From: Candidatus Aenigmarchaeum subterraneum SCGC AAA011-O16
GTDB lineage: Archaea; Aenigmatarchaeota; Aenigmatarchaeia; Aenigmatarchaeales; Aenigmatarchaeaceae
Assembly: GCA_000405245.1 (NCBI GenBank)
Contig: ASMQ01000004.1
Location: forward strand, 1 to 43,000
Direction: 5' to 3'
DNA length: 43,000 nucleotides
Shown here: piece after piece, positions 22,984 to 29,830 of the stretch
How positions within the stretch are numbered: position 1 is the first letter of the stretch
How the letters are laid out: every line of letters begins with the position of its first letter
Program-made: the position numbers and the translations under genes
The notes under the pieces: model-generated
Databases searched by the model: none
The model's input: the letters and a program-made list of their open reading frames with translations, nothing else
Told to the model about the DNA's origin: nothing

Positions 22984-22994
22984 CTACCAATCGG
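22984..22994. repeat. Left direct repeat CTACCAATCGG (target-site duplication)
   Basis: The same 11 bases occur at the right end of the island. The first nine are the likely duplicated target; the last GG also belong to the left inverted repeat. A 9-bp duplication is in the range seen for the IS4 family. Confidence 0.75.
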
Positions 22995-23056
22995 CTTTGT
23001 GTATTAAGTGCTGAAAATCTTCGACTTTATACACAGGAATTAGACTTTTTACACAG
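22993..23056. repeat. Left terminal inverted repeat and two subterminal repeats
   Basis: The terminal repeat spans 22993-23010. It is followed by GACTTTATACACAG at 23023-23036 and GACTTTTTACACAG at 23043-23056, exactly 20 bp apart. These probably are transposase binding sites, two helical turns apart and so on one face of DNA. Confidence 0.72.
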
Positions 23057-23061
23057 ATATT

Positions 23062-23511
23062 TTAGACGAGTTTTCCATACTTTTTATCAGTTCTTTCAAA
23101 AAAAATGTTATATTCTTTTTCTAATTCATTATTAAGTTTATATTTAATAGTTGTAGAATCTATAAAATCGCATATAGAAAGTAATATGTTAATTAAAGAA
23201 TTTAATTTATTAGAATCATTTTCAATTTTATCTATAGAATGTCTATCATGAACGATGAGATTTCTTATTATGTTAAAATCTTTGAGGAGTGATATGTGTT
23301 TATTATCTATTAGATCTGATTTAGAAACCCATTCAATATATTTTCCTAATGTCCAATTTCCTATTAAACTACTTTTTAAATTTTTTTCAAAAAGTAGTTT
23401 AGAAAAGAATAGATGTTCAAGATCTGCAGATGCTTGTAATAATGCTTTTAGATAATTTTTATTTTTAATGTCTTTCCTTGTGCTATCTGTAAGTAGTTTT
23501 CTTTCCACCAT
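23062..23511 (-). CDS. HEPN-like protein, putative RNase toxin
   Basis: 149 aa, all-helical by composition, with a central RNLIVHDRH that fits the R-x4-6-H catalytic motif of HEPN RNases. Cysteine is rare and there is no membrane segment. It lies 14 nt after a ribbon-helix-helix gene on the same strand with a GAGG ribosome-binding site, a toxin-antitoxin-like layout. The order antitoxin then toxin fits. The nuclease role is inferred from motif and context; a structural HEPN relative with a non-RNase role is possible. Very AT-rich, unlike the chromosomal neighbours. Confidence 0.6.
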   Translation of the reverse strand: MVERKLLTDSTRKDIKNKNYLKALLQASADLEHLFFSKLLFEKNLKSSLIGNWTLGKYIEWVSKSDLIDNKHISLLKDFNIIRNLIVHDRHSIDKIENDSNKLNSLINILLSICDFIDSTTIKYKLNNELEKEYNIFFERTDKKYGKLV

Positions 23512-23525
23512 TTTTCAAACCTCAT

Positions 23526-23690
23526 TCATCTTATATTCTCAGAAATAGATTTTCTCAAAGCCTTTTCTATAAATTGAGAGACTTCTATGTCATTCTTAAG
23601 GCAGTAGAGCTTGACATCCTTCCAGAACGCAGGATCAATCTTTATGGAGGTCGTAACTCTTGTCTTAGTTTTAACAGAACGTCTCGGCAT
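23526..23690 (-). CDS. Ribbon-helix-helix DNA-binding protein, probable antitoxin
   Basis: 54 aa starting MPRRSVKTKTRVTTSIKIDP: the strand (RVTTSIKI) and two helices (PAFWKDVKLYCLKN, EVSQFIEKALRKSI) are the RHH/CopG fold. The longer frame up to 23765 is rejected: it covers the promoter palindromes and its added residues are not domain-like. The TATA-like TATTTAAATA lies about 25 nt upstream, so a leaderless start is likely. It probably binds the GTAT/ATAC palindromes next to it and represses itself and the HEPN gene. Confidence 0.75.
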   Translation of the reverse strand: MPRRSVKTKTRVTTSIKIDPAFWKDVKLYCLKNDIEVSQFIEKALRKSISENIR

Positions 23691-23705
23691 TACAGTATTA
23701 TTATA

Positions 23706-23759
23706 GTATGTATTTAAATACTTATGCATACATAACAGTAGTATGGTATTATACAATAC
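23706..23759. promoter_or_regulatory. Divergent promoter with two palindromic operators
   Basis: O1: GTATTTAAATAC (23710-23721) inside a run of GTAT/ATAC half-sites reaching TATGCATA. O2: GTATGGTATTATACAATAC (23741-23759), arms GTATnGTAT and ATACnATAC around a central T. O1 includes a TATA box usable in both directions: leftward start near 23690 (RHH ATG) and rightward start near 23745. RHH proteins bind short tandem palindromes of this sort. Confidence 0.6.
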
Positions 23760-23779
23760 TAACATAAGAGGTGGTAAAT

Positions 23780-24988
23780 ATGGACGCTACGGCTCCAACT
23801 GATTTGAGAAAAATGAGAGGAGTTGAGATAGCTAAAACATCAAGAATAAGGAAGACAGACAAAGGATGGGTAGTCCCATCCCAGTCTGGAAAAGGAAATT
23901 ATCTCGTGAGACTAAAAGAACATGAACCGACATGCAACTGTGCGGACTGCGAGACAAGAATGAAAAAGTGCAAGCACATCTATGCGGTTGAATATATCCT
24001 AAGAAAAGAGATAGATGAAACTGGAAAAGTCAAGATAACAAAGGAGATCAAGACTTACCCACAAGACTGGAAAGCATATGACCAAGCAAAATGCCAAGAA
24101 AAAGAGCTTTTCATGAAGCTTTTAGCCGATTTATGCAAGGGGATAGACGAGCTTGTATACAAATTTGGAAGACCCAAACTGTCTTTATCGGATATGATAT
24201 TCTGCTCGGCTTTCAAGGTCTATTCATTGTATTCGCTGAGAAGATTCGAAACCGACATAAAGATAGCTAAAGAAAAGGGACTAATAAACAGCAAGCCATG
24301 TTTTGCAAGCGTAGGGCATTTTATGCAAAGAGAAGAATTGACCTACATTCTGGCGGATCTGATAAAGAAGTCCTCCATGCCTTTAAAATCAATAGAAACA
24401 GAGTTCGCAGTAGACAGCACAGGTTTTTCGACTTCCAGATTCAAGAGATGGTATGAGTTCAGATATGGAAGAGAAAAAAACTGGAGAATTTGGATAAAGG
24501 CACATGTTGTATGCGGGGTCAAAACAAACATAGTGACTGCTATTAAGCTTTCTGAATCGATTGCAAGCGATTATCGGTTTTTTGAAGAACTTGTGACGAA
24601 AACGGCAGAAAATTTCGAAATAAATGAGGTTTCAGCAGACAAAGGTTATCTCTCAAAAAACAACTTTAAAATCGTTGACGAGCTTGGCGGGACTGCCTAT
24701 ATACCTTTCAAGAAAGGAAATACAGCAAGGACGAGGCATCCAAGACTATGGAAGAAAATGTGGCATTTATTCATGTATAACAACGATGAATTCATGAAAC
24801 ACTACCACAAGAGAAGCAATGTAGAGACGACCTTCCACATGATAAAATCGAAGTTCGGCGATGCGGTAAAAAGCAAGACAAAGACAGCCCAGATAAATGA
24901 GGTTCTCTGTAAAATACTATGCCACAACATCTGTGTGGTCATACAGGAGATGCAAGAATTAGGAATAGCAGCACAGTTTGAAGAATAG
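23780..24988 (+). CDS. IS4-type DDE transposase with N-terminal SWIM zinc finger
   Basis: 402 aa from ATG 23780 (leader AGGTGGTAAAT). The N-terminal 80 residues carry CNCADCETRMKKCKH, the CxCxnCxH SWIM zinc finger. The DDE core follows: VDSTGF (first Asp), SADKGY (second Asp) and YHKRSNVETTFHMIK, which matches the IS4-family Y-(2)-R-(3)-E-(6)-K signature. A SWIM finger is usual in eukaryotic Mutator-type transposases and rarer with a YREK core. Only 9 nt follow before the next gene, so this gene is not a stand-alone IS: no inverted repeat can lie directly after it. Confidence 0.88.
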   Translation: MDATAPTDLRKMRGVEIAKTSRIRKTDKGWVVPSQSGKGNYLVRLKEHEPTCNCADCETRMKKCKHIYAVEYILRKEIDETGKVKITKEIKTYPQDWKAYDQAKCQEKELFMKLLADLCKGIDELVYKFGRPKLSLSDMIFCSAFKVYSLYSLRRFETDIKIAKEKGLINSKPCFASVGHFMQREELTYILADLIKKSSMPLKSIETEFAVDSTGFSTSRFKRWYEFRYGREKNWRIWIKAHVVCGVKTNIVTAIKLSESIASDYRFFEELVTKTAENFEINEVSADKGYLSKNNFKIVDELGGTAYIPFKKGNTARTRHPRLWKKMWHLFMYNNDEFMKHYHKRSNVETTFHMIKSKFGDAVKSKTKTAQINEVLCKILCHNICVVIQEMQELGIAAQFEE

Positions 24989-24997
24989 GTTGTAAAT

Positions 24998-25765
24998 ATG
25001 AATGATTTTAAACCAGCAACGACCTATTATTTCATGCAAAATCTTAAGGGAAAGCCAATCACGGTATCGTCTTCCAGCCTCAGACTGATGGAAGAATGCA
25101 AGAGATGTTTCTGGTTGCAGTTAAGGATGGGCATAAGAAGACCTGAGGGAGCATTCCCGAGCCTTCCAAGCGGTATGGACATAGCAATAAAGAATCACTT
25201 CGATTATTTCAGGGAGAGAAATGAGCTTCCCCCAGAGTTAAGAAACAAAATAGATGCTAAACTGTTCGCAGACATGAAAAAACTGCATGCATGGAGAATC
25301 CCGCAAAGAGGAATAAGGTTTGTTGATCCGAAATCAGGCATAACTCTGATGGGTGCCATTGATGATTTGTTAATCAATAATAGCAAACTGATAACTCTGG
25401 ACTTCAAGACAAGGGGATTTCCTTTGAAGGAGGACACGCATGAAAGCTACCAAGACCAGATGGACATTTACAATTTCCTTTTTAGGAAGAACGGGCATGA
25501 CACAGAGAATTACGGATATTTGCTGTTTTATTATCCTAACCAGTTCATGCCCAATGGGGAGTTTCATTTTCACAGCGATATAAGGAAAATTGAAGTGAAT
25601 GTAGATAATGCCGAGAAGCATTTCAAACAAGCCATAAAAGTTTTGATGGGCGAACTTCCAGAGGAAGGATGCATTTTCTGTGCTTCTATAGATGAAAAGG
25701 CATTAAGCGACTTAAATGTCATAGGTAAAATACAAAACGTTGGAATAGAAGTGAAAGAATTATAG
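24998..25765 (+). CDS. PD-(D/E)XK nuclease family protein (RecB/Cas4-like)
   Basis: 255 aa. Starts at ATG 24998 with AGGTTGTAAAT, nearly the same leader as the transposase, and is in one transcript with it. The core is LMGAIDDLL (Asp), LITLDFKTRG (Asp-x-Lys) and a YQDQMDIY helix, the RecB/Cas4-type PD-(D/E)XK arrangement. A CKRC pair near residue 35 and GCIFC near residue 227 recall the iron-sulfur cysteines of Cas4/AddB-type nucleases. The base composition is less AT-rich than the restriction gene next to it and similar to the transposase. Confidence 0.75.
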   Translation: MNDFKPATTYYFMQNLKGKPITVSSSSLRLMEECKRCFWLQLRMGIRRPEGAFPSLPSGMDIAIKNHFDYFRERNELPPELRNKIDAKLFADMKKLHAWRIPQRGIRFVDPKSGITLMGAIDDLLINNSKLITLDFKTRGFPLKEDTHESYQDQMDIYNFLFRKNGHDTENYGYLLFYYPNQFMPNGEFHFHSDIRKIEVNVDNAEKHFKQAIKVLMGELPEEGCIFCASIDEKALSDLNVIGKIQNVGIEVKEL

Positions 25766-25857
25766 GAAAAGATGCTAAAAAGCTATTTCTGGAAGATAGA
25801 AACCATCATTCCATAGTAATAAAATCGGGTAGAAATCGAAACTTAAATTCTTGTTCT

Positions 25858-25874
25858 ACACAATATAATTGTGT
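25858..25874. promoter_or_regulatory. Palindrome over the start of the restriction-modification gene
   Basis: ACACAATATAATTGTGT is a perfect inverted repeat with 7-bp arms around ATA and includes the GTG start (25871). A TATA-like CTTAAATT at about 25841-25848 puts transcription start inside it. It is a likely operator that could hold expression down when the element enters a new genome. Confidence 0.5.
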
Positions 25875-28630
25875 CAAAATACGATAATTTAGACCCAAGA
25901 AAAGAATTAGAACAAATAGTTTATGGTGATTTAAAGCGTGGATTGGAAAAACGGGGATTTGAAATCATGCACAATGGCACACCTACAATGAATGCTCCAG
26001 CAAATAAATCTGATATAGAAATTAATGATGATAATTATCGAATATGTGTAGAAGTAACCAAAAGAAGAAAATCAACGCAAGATGGAGAATATCAATCAAT
26101 TAAAGACCATTTAATTAGAGCAAAACGTGAGAACCCACGTAAAAAATGTTTCCTTATTTTTATTTCTCCAGAAACATATTACAGAACCTTCAGCTCTATA
26201 AGAGACTCAAATATAGTAAACTCTGATAAATCAGACCTGAAAATAATACCCTTGTCTTTTGTTAACTTTGAACTTTTCATAACTAAATTAATACAAAATC
26301 CAAAAGAAGATTTCCCAAAAAGAGATATTCTTTCTCTTTTCGATAAAACAGAAGAATACATAGATGATGAAGCTATTCTAAAACTTCTATCTAATACACT
26401 TTTTTACGAAGATACAGAATTAAAAAAGGAAATAAGTATAAAAGAAGAAGAAAGACATCAGCAAACTGTTCAAGATTTAATTAAGGACTTAAAAAAATTT
26501 GAAGATGATTTAAGGAAAAATGGGATAGCAACACATACAGACGCAATTAAAAATGTCATATATTTAGTTTTCATGAAACTATATGAGGAAAAAAGGGAAT
26601 ACGAGAAAAAAACAAATAGATTTAGTAGAATGGGATTTATAAAATTCCAAGATGTAGAAGATAATCAAAAAACAGCATGTCATAAATTATTTGAACTGAT
26701 TAAAAACGATCATGAAATAAAGATTGCAAAGATGTTTAATGAGCATGATTTGCTTGCTGAAAAATTTACAGATGAATTTGTTATGAATTATTTTGTCATA
26801 CCATTTGAAAAGTATTTCTTTTACACCACGAAAGTTGATGGTCTGGGTGCCGCTTATGAAGTTTTAGGTCAACTATCTGGCAAAGACACGAAGGCTGGGC
26901 AGTTCTTCACGCCAGAAAATGTTGTAAGATTTATGATAAAACTTGCCGATTTAAAATCAGATGATATCGTATTAGATCCTGCTTGCGGAACTGGAAGATT
27001 CTTGATTTATGCGATGTATGATATGCTCTCAAAAATTAATGGTCGAAATAGGGAAGAAAAAGAGAAAAAAATAAAGCAAGAACAACTATTTGGTTCGGAC
27101 TTTGATTCTTACGTATCAAAGCTTTCAAAAATGAACATGTATATTCATGGAGACGGTAAGACTAATGTTCAAGACAAAGATGGTCTTCTATTACCAGATA
27201 AGGATAATAAAATAGATGTCATATTGACGAATCCACCTTTGGGAAATCTAAGTTATAATCTTCCATCTTACAATGACAATTTCAAAATAAATCGCATGGT
27301 CGTTATACCACGAAAAAATCTCACAGAAGGAAAAATTTTATCATGCAGAAAGGCTTTGGAAAATAGCGTATCTGAAGAAAGAAAAGAACAATTAAGACAA
27401 AAAATAAATGAACTACAAAATCTATTACAAACTGATCCAGAAATAGTCATTACTGGAAATGAAATAAAGGGTGGGGCTTTGTTCATTAACGCTTCAAATC
27501 ATTATTTGAAAAACGATTCTAATGATGACATGCCAATAGAATGGCGTGGTGGAAAATTGGTAATTATTGTTGATGAAGGTCTACTTAATACAGATGATTA
27601 TTCGAAATTAAGAGAATTCATAAAAAGGAATTTTTATATAAAAGCTGTTATTTCTTTGACAAGCGATACTTTCATACCAGTCTCTAAGACACCCAATAAA
27701 ACTTCAATTCTTTTTGCTATCAAAAAGAGTGATACTGATGCTGTTCAAAAAGAGCCCATATTTTTTTCATATGTAGACAAAGTTGGATTGAACACAAAAA
27801 GAAAGGTTTGCGAGAATCATCTCTTTAATGGAACAAATGTTAATACAGTTATTGAAAATTATAATGAATTCAGGAAACTCGTTTTATCTTGCTATTCTGG
27901 AAAAACTTTCGATGAAAGGACATTTATTAGCAAAATTAAAAATGGCAAGAGAATAGATATTCAAAGAGAATCATTTTTCTTTGCAAGAAAATTTGACGAA
28001 ATAGAAGATAGATTGGATATAAGATTTTACGACCCAAAATTTGATGAGATAAAACAATTTATGAAATCTAACAGAGTGATGCATCTTAGAGAAGTTGTTC
28101 TGCCAGATGGTATGGATTATGGACTGACAGCAAGCGGACAAGAAAGAGGAAAAATACCTTTTGTGAATATAGAAAATCTTACTAAAGATGGGTTGATAGA
28201 CGACGCTAATATCAGATTCGTTAATGAAGTTAGTGATAATTTGCTATTATCAAAAGGAGAACTTCTCATATCACGAAGTAGGTTAATCGGACTCGCTTCT
28301 ATAACTACAGAAAAAGAGGTCAAATGGACTTATGGATCTTACATAATCAGATTTAAACTTGATATGTCAAAGGTCGAGCCTTTATTTGTGGCAAAATTCA
28401 TTAACAGCAAAAAAGGCATGCTTCAGACAGAATTGCTAAAAACTGGTTCTGTTGGTGAAAATATAAATTCTGAACAATTATTAAGAGTTACAATTCCAAA
28501 AATAGATAAAATAAAACAATTGGAAATATTGAGAAAGATAAAAGATGTAGAAGATAAAGCTGAAGAAATAGAAAAAAAAGTGTTTTTAGAAAGAGAAAAA
28601 GCTAAGAATGTCATCGAAGATGAATTATAA
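25871..28630 (+). CDS. Single-chain restriction-modification-specificity protein (type IIG-like)
   Basis: 919 aa from GTG 25871. Residues 1-150: a nuclease-like domain with D48 and EVTK (61-64), a loose PD-(D/E)XK arrangement. Around 220-340: a helical HsdM-like N-terminal part. Around 343-460: the methylase core with GQFFTP, DPACGTGRFL (SAM binding, near 370) and TNPPLGN (near 453), an NPPL in place of the usual NPPY/F. From about 713: an S-type target-recognition domain ending in a coiled coil. One protein thus combines cleavage, adenine methylation and recognition. The E-x-x-K spacing makes the nuclease call the weak part. Much more AT-rich than the flanks. Confidence 0.78.
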   Translation: MSKYDNLDPRKELEQIVYGDLKRGLEKRGFEIMHNGTPTMNAPANKSDIEINDDNYRICVEVTKRRKSTQDGEYQSIKDHLIRAKRENPRKKCFLIFISPETYYRTFSSIRDSNIVNSDKSDLKIIPLSFVNFELFITKLIQNPKEDFPKRDILSLFDKTEEYIDDEAILKLLSNTLFYEDTELKKEISIKEEERHQQTVQDLIKDLKKFEDDLRKNGIATHTDAIKNVIYLVFMKLYEEKREYEKKTNRFSRMGFIKFQDVEDNQKTACHKLFELIKNDHEIKIAKMFNEHDLLAEKFTDEFVMNYFVIPFEKYFFYTTKVDGLGAAYEVLGQLSGKDTKAGQFFTPENVVRFMIKLADLKSDDIVLDPACGTGRFLIYAMYDMLSKINGRNREEKEKKIKQEQLFGSDFDSYVSKLSKMNMYIHGDGKTNVQDKDGLLLPDKDNKIDVILTNPPLGNLSYNLPSYNDNFKINRMVVIPRKNLTEGKILSCRKALENSVSEERKEQLRQKINELQNLLQTDPEIVITGNEIKGGALFINASNHYLKNDSNDDMPIEWRGGKLVIIVDEGLLNTDDYSKLREFIKRNFYIKAVISLTSDTFIPVSKTPNKTSILFAIKKSDTDAVQKEPIFFSYVDKVGLNTKRKVCENHLFNGTNVNTVIENYNEFRKLVLSCYSGKTFDERTFISKIKNGKRIDIQRESFFFARKFDEIEDRLDIRFYDPKFDEIKQFMKSNRVMHLREVVLPDGMDYGLTASGQERGKIPFVNIENLTKDGLIDDANIRFVNEVSDNLLLSKGELLISRSRLIGLASITTEKEVKWTYGSYIIRFKLDMSKVEPLFVAKFINSKKGMLQTELLKTGSVGENINSEQLLRVTIPKIDKIKQLEILRKIKDVEDKAEEIEKKVFLEREKAKNVIEDEL

Positions 28631-28632
28631 TT

Positions 28633-28926
28633 ATGACATACGAATCGAAAACAAGCGAAACTGAAATTCCTTGCCCATTTTGTAATGAGGGTAAAATTAA
28701 ATCTCTTTATACTCCAATTATAAAAGTTACAAAATTCTCAAGAGCGGCTTCTAATAAAAAAGCTACAAACTATTTCAAACCCGAAAAATATGTTATACTA
28801 TCAGGATGTCCTATTTGTCATAAAACTAAAAAAGAAATAGAAAAAAGACTTAAAGAAGGTAAGCAACCCTCAAGAGAAGAGGTTTTAAGACGTATGAAAG
28901 AAGCAGGATTACCTACTAAGTTTTAG
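28633..28926 (+). CDS. Small zinc-binding protein downstream of the R-M gene
   Basis: 97 aa, starting 2 nt after the R-M stop. It has CPFC near residue 14 and GCPIC near residue 53, so a two-half zinc ribbon, followed by a charged helix (KTKKEIEKRLKEGK). No named family. As a translation-coupled partner it could help the R-M protein bind DNA or regulate it; this is inference. Confidence 0.65.
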   Translation: MTYESKTSETEIPCPFCNEGKIKSLYTPIIKVTKFSRAASNKKATNYFKPEKYVILSGCPICHKTKKEIEKRLKEGKQPSREEVLRRMKEAGLPTKF

Positions 28927-29000
28927 CCAAAGGGCAATTCCTATGCTTTCCTTCTATGTAGCATAAAGGTTTCCAGCAACGAATATCTAAACCTTTGGCT
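28925..29000. other. Nested inverted repeats downstream of the zinc protein gene
   Basis: AGCCAAAGG (28925-28933) pairs with CCTTTGGCT (28992-29000), and TATGCT (28942-28947) pairs with AGCATA (28960-28965) inside it. In RNA this gives a 76-nt two-stem structure starting in the stop codon of the preceding gene. It could be a terminator, an mRNA-stabilising end or a small RNA. Confidence 0.35.
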
Positions 29001-29077
29001 TGAATTATCTTGAACTTCATAAGAATAAAAATACTTATCTTTAGGAAAGACCTATGTTACTCATATTGGTGGTGAAA

Positions 29078-29461
29078 ATGAGGCTGACAGAAAAAGGAAT
29101 AAAATATGTATTGAATTACGAGAAAGAACAAAAAAGAAAGCCTATTGATGTTAGCAAAAACAAGAATTTTGTTGGGTTTGATATAATCAGTATAGACCCA
29201 AAGAAAAATGATCATAGGTTGATAGAAGTCAAAGCCACCGAAACAGAAAAGGGAATACCAGATGCATATGCAAACGAGTTCACAAGGAATTTGAAGTTTG
29301 TAGCCACGCATCTTTATGTTGTTAAATTTAAAGGAAATAAATCGACTTTATATATAATACCAAAAAAAGAGATAGACAAATATGAACACAAGATATTCCC
29401 TCATGTAAGATTCAACCATAAACTAAAGACAGAGATTGAAAAGTTCAAAGTTAAAATATGA
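29078..29461 (+). CDS. DUF3883 (NO VEIN C-terminal-like) PD-(D/E)XK protein
   Basis: 127 aa from ATG 29078, which has GGTGGTGAAA directly upstream; the ATG at 29054 lacks one. The core GFDIISIDP followed by RLIEVKATE is the DUF3883 pattern, a PD-(D/E)XK relative with Asp and E-x-K. DUF3883 domains are frequent in restriction-like and other defence proteins. The stop codon runs into the right inner subterminal repeat, so this is the last gene of the element. Confidence 0.8.
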   Translation: MRLTEKGIKYVLNYEKEQKRKPIDVSKNKNFVGFDIISIDPKKNDHRLIEVKATETEKGIPDAYANEFTRNLKFVATHLYVVKFKGNKSTLYIIPKKEIDKYEHKIFPHVRFNHKLKTEIEKFKVKI

Positions 29462-29515
29462 CTTTTTACACACAAACCCTACTTTATACACAAAAGTCAC
29501 TACTTACACAAAGCC
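29460..29515. repeat. Right subterminal repeats and terminal inverted repeat
   Basis: GACTTTTTACACAC (29460-29473) and TACTTTATACACAA (29480-29493) are again 20 bp apart; the inverted terminal repeat is 29498-29515. The inner repeats are in the same orientation as at the left end, so only the outermost sites are inverted relative to each other. Confidence 0.72.
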
Positions 29516-29526
29516 CTACCAATCGG
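29516..29526. repeat. Right direct repeat CTACCAATCGG (target-site duplication)
   Basis: Second copy of the flanking repeat. Here it runs on into TAG, giving CTACC-AATC-GGTAG, a 5-bp hairpin that would also exist in the empty site. A TTTAAATA box follows at 29531-29538 and probably serves the gene at 29582. Confidence 0.75.
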
Positions 29527-29581
29527 TAGCTTTAAATATGGGCCAAAGTATTTATTTATTACTAAGTAATGGTGATAATTG

Positions 29582-29830
29582 ATGAATGGCAAGTTTAAAC
29601 TGCCTGCACAAGTGAAACCAGAAGCTGGATTGAATGGTGACTTATCGATGTTCAGAAAATTGGAATTAAAAAGACCGGCTGTTGTTAGAGTAGGCACTAT
29701 GGTTAAGTCTTGTTTCTATTACGAGGGTACAAAGCAATGTTTAGGTCCAATGTGCCTTTGGCCAAAGGTTGGAGTCTGCCCTATTTACAATAGATTAATG
29801 AGAGGCAAGAAATTTATAAAAGCCAAGTAG
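29582..29830 (+). CDS. Cys-rich 82-aa protein of unknown function
   Basis: Starts at ATG 29582 with GGTGAT about 6 nt upstream. The C-terminal half has four cysteines at 8, 4 and 7 residue intervals (SCFYYEG, QCLGPMCLWP, VCPIYN), suggesting a zinc or Fe-S site. The N-terminal half is basic and Pro/Leu-rich. No family recognised. In the empty-site state it would lie next to the alkyltransferase gene. Confidence 0.5.
   Translation: MNGKFKLPAQVKPEAGLNGDLSMFRKLELKRPAVVRVGTMVKSCFYYEGTKQCLGPMCLWPKVGVCPIYNRLMRGKKFIKAK

Follow-up and report, generated by a model that had tools for sequence, protein, structure and literature searches.

A probable unit transposon of a SWIM-bearing IS5/IS903-related branch with restriction-modification passengers in an aenigmarchaeal genome

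Introduction

Restriction-modification (R-M) systems move often, and dedicated vehicles for them are rarely pinned down. Among the simplest mobile elements, IS903 duplicates 9 bp of its target. Both IS903B (a 1,057-bp copy, ends GGCTTTGTTGAATAAATC) and ISSod12 (1,058 bp, ends GGCTTTGTTTCCTAAAT), read here from public plasmids and 59% identical to each other, are bare insertion sequences (IS). Transporter IS (tIS), in which an IS-type transposase and passenger genes lie within one pair of ends, have been described (PMC9330008). Tn7-like elements have arrays of sites at their ends and R-M as their commonest defence cargo; a survey recorded R-M components in 947 of 6,549 such elements and found no Tn7-like element in archaea (PMC8649781). 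Mobile type I/IIG R-M systems such as RM.BsaXI combine nuclease, N6-methyltransferase and specificity parts. In archaea, passenger-carrying composite DNA transposons were among the classes undetected according to a 2019 survey of thaumarchaeal elements (PMC6563490). DPANN genomes are reportedly poor in R-M (PMC12988326), and solo-Cas4 genes have been reported beside R-M genes in them (PMC5704561). We found no description of an IS5/IS903 tIS like the one analyzed here or of SWIM/IS5 cargo transposons in the open-access literature, preprints excluded.

Here we analyze a 43,000-nucleotide stretch of Candidatus Aenigmarchaeum subterraneum SCGC AAA011-O16 (contig ASMQ01000004.1), referred to as the window, from a draft genome of 429 kb that is 42% complete. 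An earlier sequence-only reading had proposed a cargo-carrying IS4-type element within it. We conclude that the block at 22993-29515 is very probably a unit transposon of a distinct SWIM-bearing IS5/IS903 branch, whose passengers form a mobile R-M package.

Results

Boundaries, target duplication and empty site

The transposon-like unit measures 6,523 bp and holds six passenger or accessory genes beside the transposase gene (Table 1). Its 18-bp terminal inverted repeats are identical at 15/18 positions, just as first read. When we required an exact 9-bp repeat outside inverted repeats matching at ≥15/18 positions and 0.5-12 kb apart, exactly one pair was found in the real window vs none in 60 Markov-simulated windows.

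Table 1. Positions of the terminal sites and genes of the element in the window.
Feature	Position	Strand	Evidence
Left 9-bp target duplication copy, CTACCAATC	22984..22992	.	Sequence; empty site in L148
Left terminal inverted repeat GGCTTTGTGTATTAAGTG, B-end outer site	22993..23010	+	Sequence comparison of ends
B-end inner site 1, GACTTTATACACA	23023..23035	+	Motif scan
B-end inner site 2, GACTTTTTACACA	23043..23055	+	Motif scan
HEPN-like protein, 149 aa, RNLIVH motif, passenger	23062..23511	-	Weak PADLOC CARF-HEPN match, 0.0014
Ribbon-helix-helix (RHH) protein, divergent to transposase, probable start near 23690	23526..23765	-	RHH_4, 0.0018
SWIM-DDE transposase, 405 aa, IS5/IS903-like	23771..24988	+	Pfam, NCBIfam, alignment, ends
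RecB/Cas4-like PD-(D/E)XK nuclease, passenger	24998..25765	+	PDDEXK_1, 1.7e-6
Nuclease-methyltransferase-specificity fusion, 919 aa, type IIG/IIB-like	25871..28630	+	Domain matches
Small zinc-ribbon-like protein, 97 aa	28633..28926	+	Common to L052 and L054
NOV_C/DUF3883 domain protein, passenger	29054..29461	+	NOV_C, 6.3e-8
A-end inner site 2, GACTTTTTACACA	29460..29472	+	Motif scan
A-end inner site 1, TACTTTATACACA	29480..29492	+	Motif scan
Right terminal inverted repeat, A-end outer site	29498..29515	-	Reverse complement reads GGCTTTGTGTAAGTAGTG
Right 9-bp target duplication copy, CTACCAATC	29516..29524	.	Sequence; empty site in L148

The empty site that the sequence-only reading had proposed searching for exists at locus L148 of G003, a same-family relative. 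There the Cys-rich gene comes immediately after the alkyltransferase gene, and the next conserved gene (window 30278) lies downstream in the same order. With the window flanks joined over one duplication copy, the match to L148 is unbroken across the junction (alignment score 268 vs at most 59 with shuffled sequence), L148 reading CTACTGACCGATAG against the window's CTACCAATC+GGTAG. The alignment thus fixes the duplication at 9 bp and identifies the whole block as an insertion. The 9-bp direct repeat first noted therefore stands, and its 11-bp version, extended by GG, does not, since the empty site assigns the left GG to the element as its first two bases and the right GG to the target. Only one copy of the element is present in the 42%-complete draft, so there is no direct sign of recent movement. 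The small Cys-rich gene adjoining the insertion site (window 29579-29830; L148 1465-1665) has conserved counterparts in 28 of the 95 related genomes that were searched.

Transposase and family placement

The catalytic residues D215, D290 and E352 are invariant across 32 homologs, and the Y-2-R-3-E-6-K signature that had been recognized from the translation is present (Y345, R348, E352, K359). The N-terminal SWIM zinc finger keeps C55, C67 and H69 in 31/31 alignment rows covering the region and C57 in 30 of these 31. A fold search with the predicted structure returned only generic RNase-H-like DDE matches.

The IS4 label originally given to the element was not upheld. NCBIfam ranks IS5_2 first (8.5e-35; 120.6 bits, under the 140-bit equivalog cut-off) vs 4e-11 for IS4_1. 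Bacterial plasmid relatives are mostly annotated as IS5 (ISSod12, ISSpu20), with one annotated as IS4-like. The transposase is related to those of the IS903/ISSod12 group (profile values of 5e-19 and 5.5e-27 when two sequences were tested), and the 18-bp GGCTTTGTT... ends of IS903B and ISSod12, both annotated as IS5, match those found here, which begin GGCTTTGT. Because of this ranking, the annotations and the ISSod12/IS903B-like ends, the transposase is best assigned, on sequence grounds, to a SWIM-bearing branch near IS903 and not to IS4. The size of 6,523 bp, the cargo and the inner site arrays make the window element a member of a related branch rather than of the IS903 group proper. We considered whether SWIM is strictly required for cargo and rejected the idea: L119 and L045 lack SWIM in the transposase frame, yet are 6-7 kb elements, and both carry 9-bp duplications.

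A group of related elements

Profile searches recovered the transposase from DPANN and other archaea, Dehalococcoidia, Acidobacteria, Blastocatellia, others and viral contigs. A contig scan with the single protein as query gave no match. The closest named carriers of the window's transposase are Nanoarchaeota MAGs. Using an end-finder that looks for matching inverted repeats with a 9-bp repeat just outside, we defined the limits of 51 complete elements from archaea, bacteria and viral contigs, counting that of the window. They are 2,140-8,353 bp long (median 4,298; n = 51), with GGCTTTG-type ends and 9-bp duplications. A stringent version of the end-finder gave candidates at 9 bp for 38 loci vs 1 at 8 bp and 2 at 10 bp; the 20 loci at 7 bp and 7 at 11 bp are probably in part echoes, since a one-base shift of both ends alters the length by two. 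Broken or truncated copies may be present in the 40+ loci for which no ends were delimited. A check proposed earlier was to look for other copies of the terminal 18-mers with the same cargo order and other flanking 9-mers; the relatives have common ends, with differing flanking 9-mers and differing cargo. We encountered neither relatives with the island genes and no terminal repeats nor repeats enclosing the transposase gene only. With the empty site and with relatives that combine common ends, other 9-mers and other cargo, the proposal that the whole block is one cargo-carrying mobile unit is supported.

No bare IS copy of ~1.3 kb was detected in any delimited locus or in the loci with ±1.5 kb, with the caveat that a multi-copy bare IS may drop out in assembly. 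L023, a distant IS5-like relative, has the appearance of a bare IS (1.16 kb, 9-bp duplication). The duplicated 9-mers vary and a strong consensus is absent; 50 reconstructed sites show a weak symmetric preference (A at -11, T at -7, A at +7/+8, T at +11), which sits about one helical turn from the site center. Two acidobacterial elements (L086:8719-11706 and L111:8845-11260) both have ACACTTCGT as their target, set in an identical short context (GTGGCAAAAAAGCCACACTTCGTGGC), and in L111 a further GGCTTTG end comes next without a gap, an arrangement that suggests tandem insertion at a hot spot.

In a quick, midpoint-rooted transposase tree of the 51 elements, an archaeal clade (n = 27) and a bacterial clade (n = 24) are separated by a highly supported split. 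The complete elements L133, L134, L139, L140, L142 and L144 are located on contigs that IMG/VR classes as viral, L133 belonging to the archaeal clade.

Polar ends with inner sites

The first account of the ends was correct for the outer inverted repeats and overlooked four inner motif copies: RACTTWWTACACA occurs in two extra copies inside each end of the window element. A scan of each element with the core of its own repeat revealed a polar architecture in most of the 51, some being without the full site set. The A end tends to have three tandem sites in one orientation (starts at ~6, 24 and 44), and the B end an outer site followed by two oppositely oriented ones at ~32 and 52. The subterminal 108 bp hold 12.5 sites per kb vs 0.26 per kb in the interior. 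The motif varies among subfamilies (TACACA, TAAACA, others) and the spacing is constant, as expected if the sites co-evolve with their transposase. No inner sites occur in IS903B or ISSod12. Many elements have a transposase gene that stops 60-69 bp short of the B end; in the window element, L052, L096, L110 and L129 the gene has the opposite direction with respect to the ends.

Passengers of the window element

The fusion of restriction, modification and specificity parts claimed from the sequence was borne out: an AlwI-like nuclease (RE_AlwI 1.8e-8), an N6-methyltransferase (N6_Mtase 8.5e-30) and a specificity region (Specificity_I 1.2e-23) lie in one chain, which also matches RM.BsaXI (4.3e-11). 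The type IIG/IIB domain set of nuclease, N6-methyltransferase and target recognition is complete. Methyltransferase motif I (DPACGTG) is intact, and motif IV (window 27230-27241) reads NPPL, not NPPF/Y, as it likewise does in a 55% identical relative in L094 (Dehalococcoidia). Judged by these domains, the protein should methylate and cut at one sequence; its structure prediction (mean pLDDT 55) was left unused. The calls of a RecB/Cas4-like nuclease and a DUF3883 protein also agree with domain matches (Table 1). Among the other delimited elements, only L068 yielded a homolog of the nuclease, and there it lies far from the transposase gene.

The HEPN and RHH genes had been taken as a pair, and this did not hold. 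An RHH gene (43-79 codons) is found divergent and just upstream of the transposase gene, always on the opposite strand, in 11 archaeal loci including the window, and it recurs without a HEPN homolog. In the closest relative, L052 (the same place as L032), a search for a HEPN homolog was negative, and that side is occupied by a DUF4747 gene. We therefore discarded a HEPN/RHH toxin-antitoxin pair, since the RHH gene belongs with the transposase module; its product is likely a core regulator that would control the transposase. The HEPN-like protein had no match in the PDB.

Cargo across the group

DNA methyltransferases are carried by 23 of the 51 elements (45%), with recognized methyltransferases in 18/27 archaeal vs 5/24 bacterial elements. 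They comprise type I-like or R-M-S fusions and type IIG, C5, D12, N4/N6 and EcoRI-type enzymes, and endonucleases are recognizable beside several of them (BglII, Mrr, GmrSD/HNH, DraIII-like). A six-frame ORF search with the 23 methyltransferases gave 3 matches in 652,754 bp of flanks vs 23 carriers in 235,709 bp, a comparison slightly biased against unrelated flank methyltransferases because the query set came from the cargo. As an independent control, a Pfam scan of 121 flank ORFs matched no methyltransferase family by more than one member; motif IV was present in 15/98 cargo ORFs vs 1/121 flank ORFs. R-M is the dominant, recurrent cargo of the whole group, a point that the sequence-only reading had overlooked.

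Methyltransferase types are scattered over the transposase tree, and the closest relative of the window's cargo found here sits in the other (bacterial) clade, so that cassettes seem to exchange among element lineages. Also carried are HerA/NurA-like genes (L100), Fic (L130), a Panacea antitoxin-like gene (L056) and many unknown genes. L067:7945-9870 and L076:4062-5975, which have distant transposases, share a two-gene cargo (~470-478 aa and 162-166 aa) whose large protein has no Pfam match; we regard it as a candidate defense system. The unknown cargo forms a short, bounded list of candidate defense genes, since the ends are findable from sequence.

Discussion

As far as its sequence features indicate, the group functions as a unit transposon or transporter IS, is kin to IS903 and stands apart through its cargo, its ends and the SWIM domain. 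IS903B and ISSod12 are bare (~1.06 kb) and without SWIM or inner sites, whereas all 51 elements here are at least 2.1 kb long. Unlike described tIS, the group has polar multi-site ends, consistently lacks bare forms and prefers R-M cargo. It differs from Tn7-like elements in its single IS5-related DDE transposase, the absence of TnsA/C/D/E and of a fixed target, and its presence in archaea, and from mobile type I/IIG systems in that a single 919-aa chain with motif IV NPPL lies inside a unit transposon. No Cas1-type integrase, as in casposons, is present among the element's proteins.

From the boundaries, duplication, empty site, ends, relatives and cargo enrichment, all read from the sequence, we infer transposition, transposase binding to six sites, RHH regulation, restriction activity and addiction. 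The DDE transposase would recognize the outer inverted repeats and inner motif copies as two different ends, and its strand transfer would insert the complete block at targets chosen with little selectivity, which it would cut with a 9-bp stagger. Transposase expression is probably repressed or assisted by the divergent RHH protein. The R-M package would protect the host against foreign DNA, and post-segregational killing may help to retain the element. Weighing against this reading are the single copy in the incomplete draft, the NPPL form of motif IV (seen also in the L094 relative), the small share of methyltransferase carriers in the bacterial clade, the loci lacking delimited ends and a structure model that contributes no more than a generic fold.

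That an ordinary IS landed in a defense island, its flanking repeats being coincidental, deserves almost no credence, even though defense genes cluster and islands attract IS elements. Such coincidence is contradicted by the simulated windows and by the lack of a bare IS copy in the delimited and ±1.5-kb loci, and the empty site together with relatives in which the same end arrays flank different cargo in tens of genomes rules it out. Hardly more probable is a Tn7-like two-protein transposase with the RecB-like nuclease as TnsA-type partner. The nuclease gene begins 9 bp downstream of the transposase gene, and the ends are multi-site as in Tn7; however, the TnsA/TnsB/TnsC set had no match among the seven main proteins of the window element, and the survey cited above recorded no Tn7-like element in archaea (PMC8649781). 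We rejected the TnsA-like role because of the single homolog in L068, which is remote from its transposase. An element of the IS4 family is improbable too. The YREK signature, a duplication length within the IS4 range and a match to Pfam DDE_Tnp_1 agree with it, but that model spans IS4 and IS5 alike, and signature and duplication are not IS4-specific because the whole IS5-type group here has both. The profile ranking and mostly IS5 annotations of the plasmid relatives oppose it, as do ends near-identical to those of IS903B and ISSod12, one L129 end sharing 17/18 bases with IS903B.

A different question is what the cargo does for the same transposon. That it serves mainly as a selfish addiction or end-methylation device and not in host defense seems unlikely, if still worth serious attention: post-segregational killing by R-M is established, and the recurring R-M enzymes belong to many unrelated types, which would fit selection on the trait rather than on the gene. 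Against this, HerA/NurA-like genes, Fic and other defense-type genes are also carried. Beyond the unit transposon with its R-M package, we tentatively propose, as a scenario that may well prove wrong, that a dedicated R-M vehicle was ancestral in archaea; that its synaptic complex would be polar and six-sited, unlike that of IS903; that the methyltransferase would mark the element or its host, with a penalty for losing the element or passing it to an unmethylated cell; and that unrelated R-M cassettes would be swapped on one conserved chassis across both prokaryotic domains.

The elements apparently constitute a widespread transposon group in archaea and bacteria that had not been described before. 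The group would provide a vehicle for R-M, in DPANN archaea especially, and it may explain the solo-Cas4-like nucleases beside R-M genes in DPANN genomes (PMC5704561).
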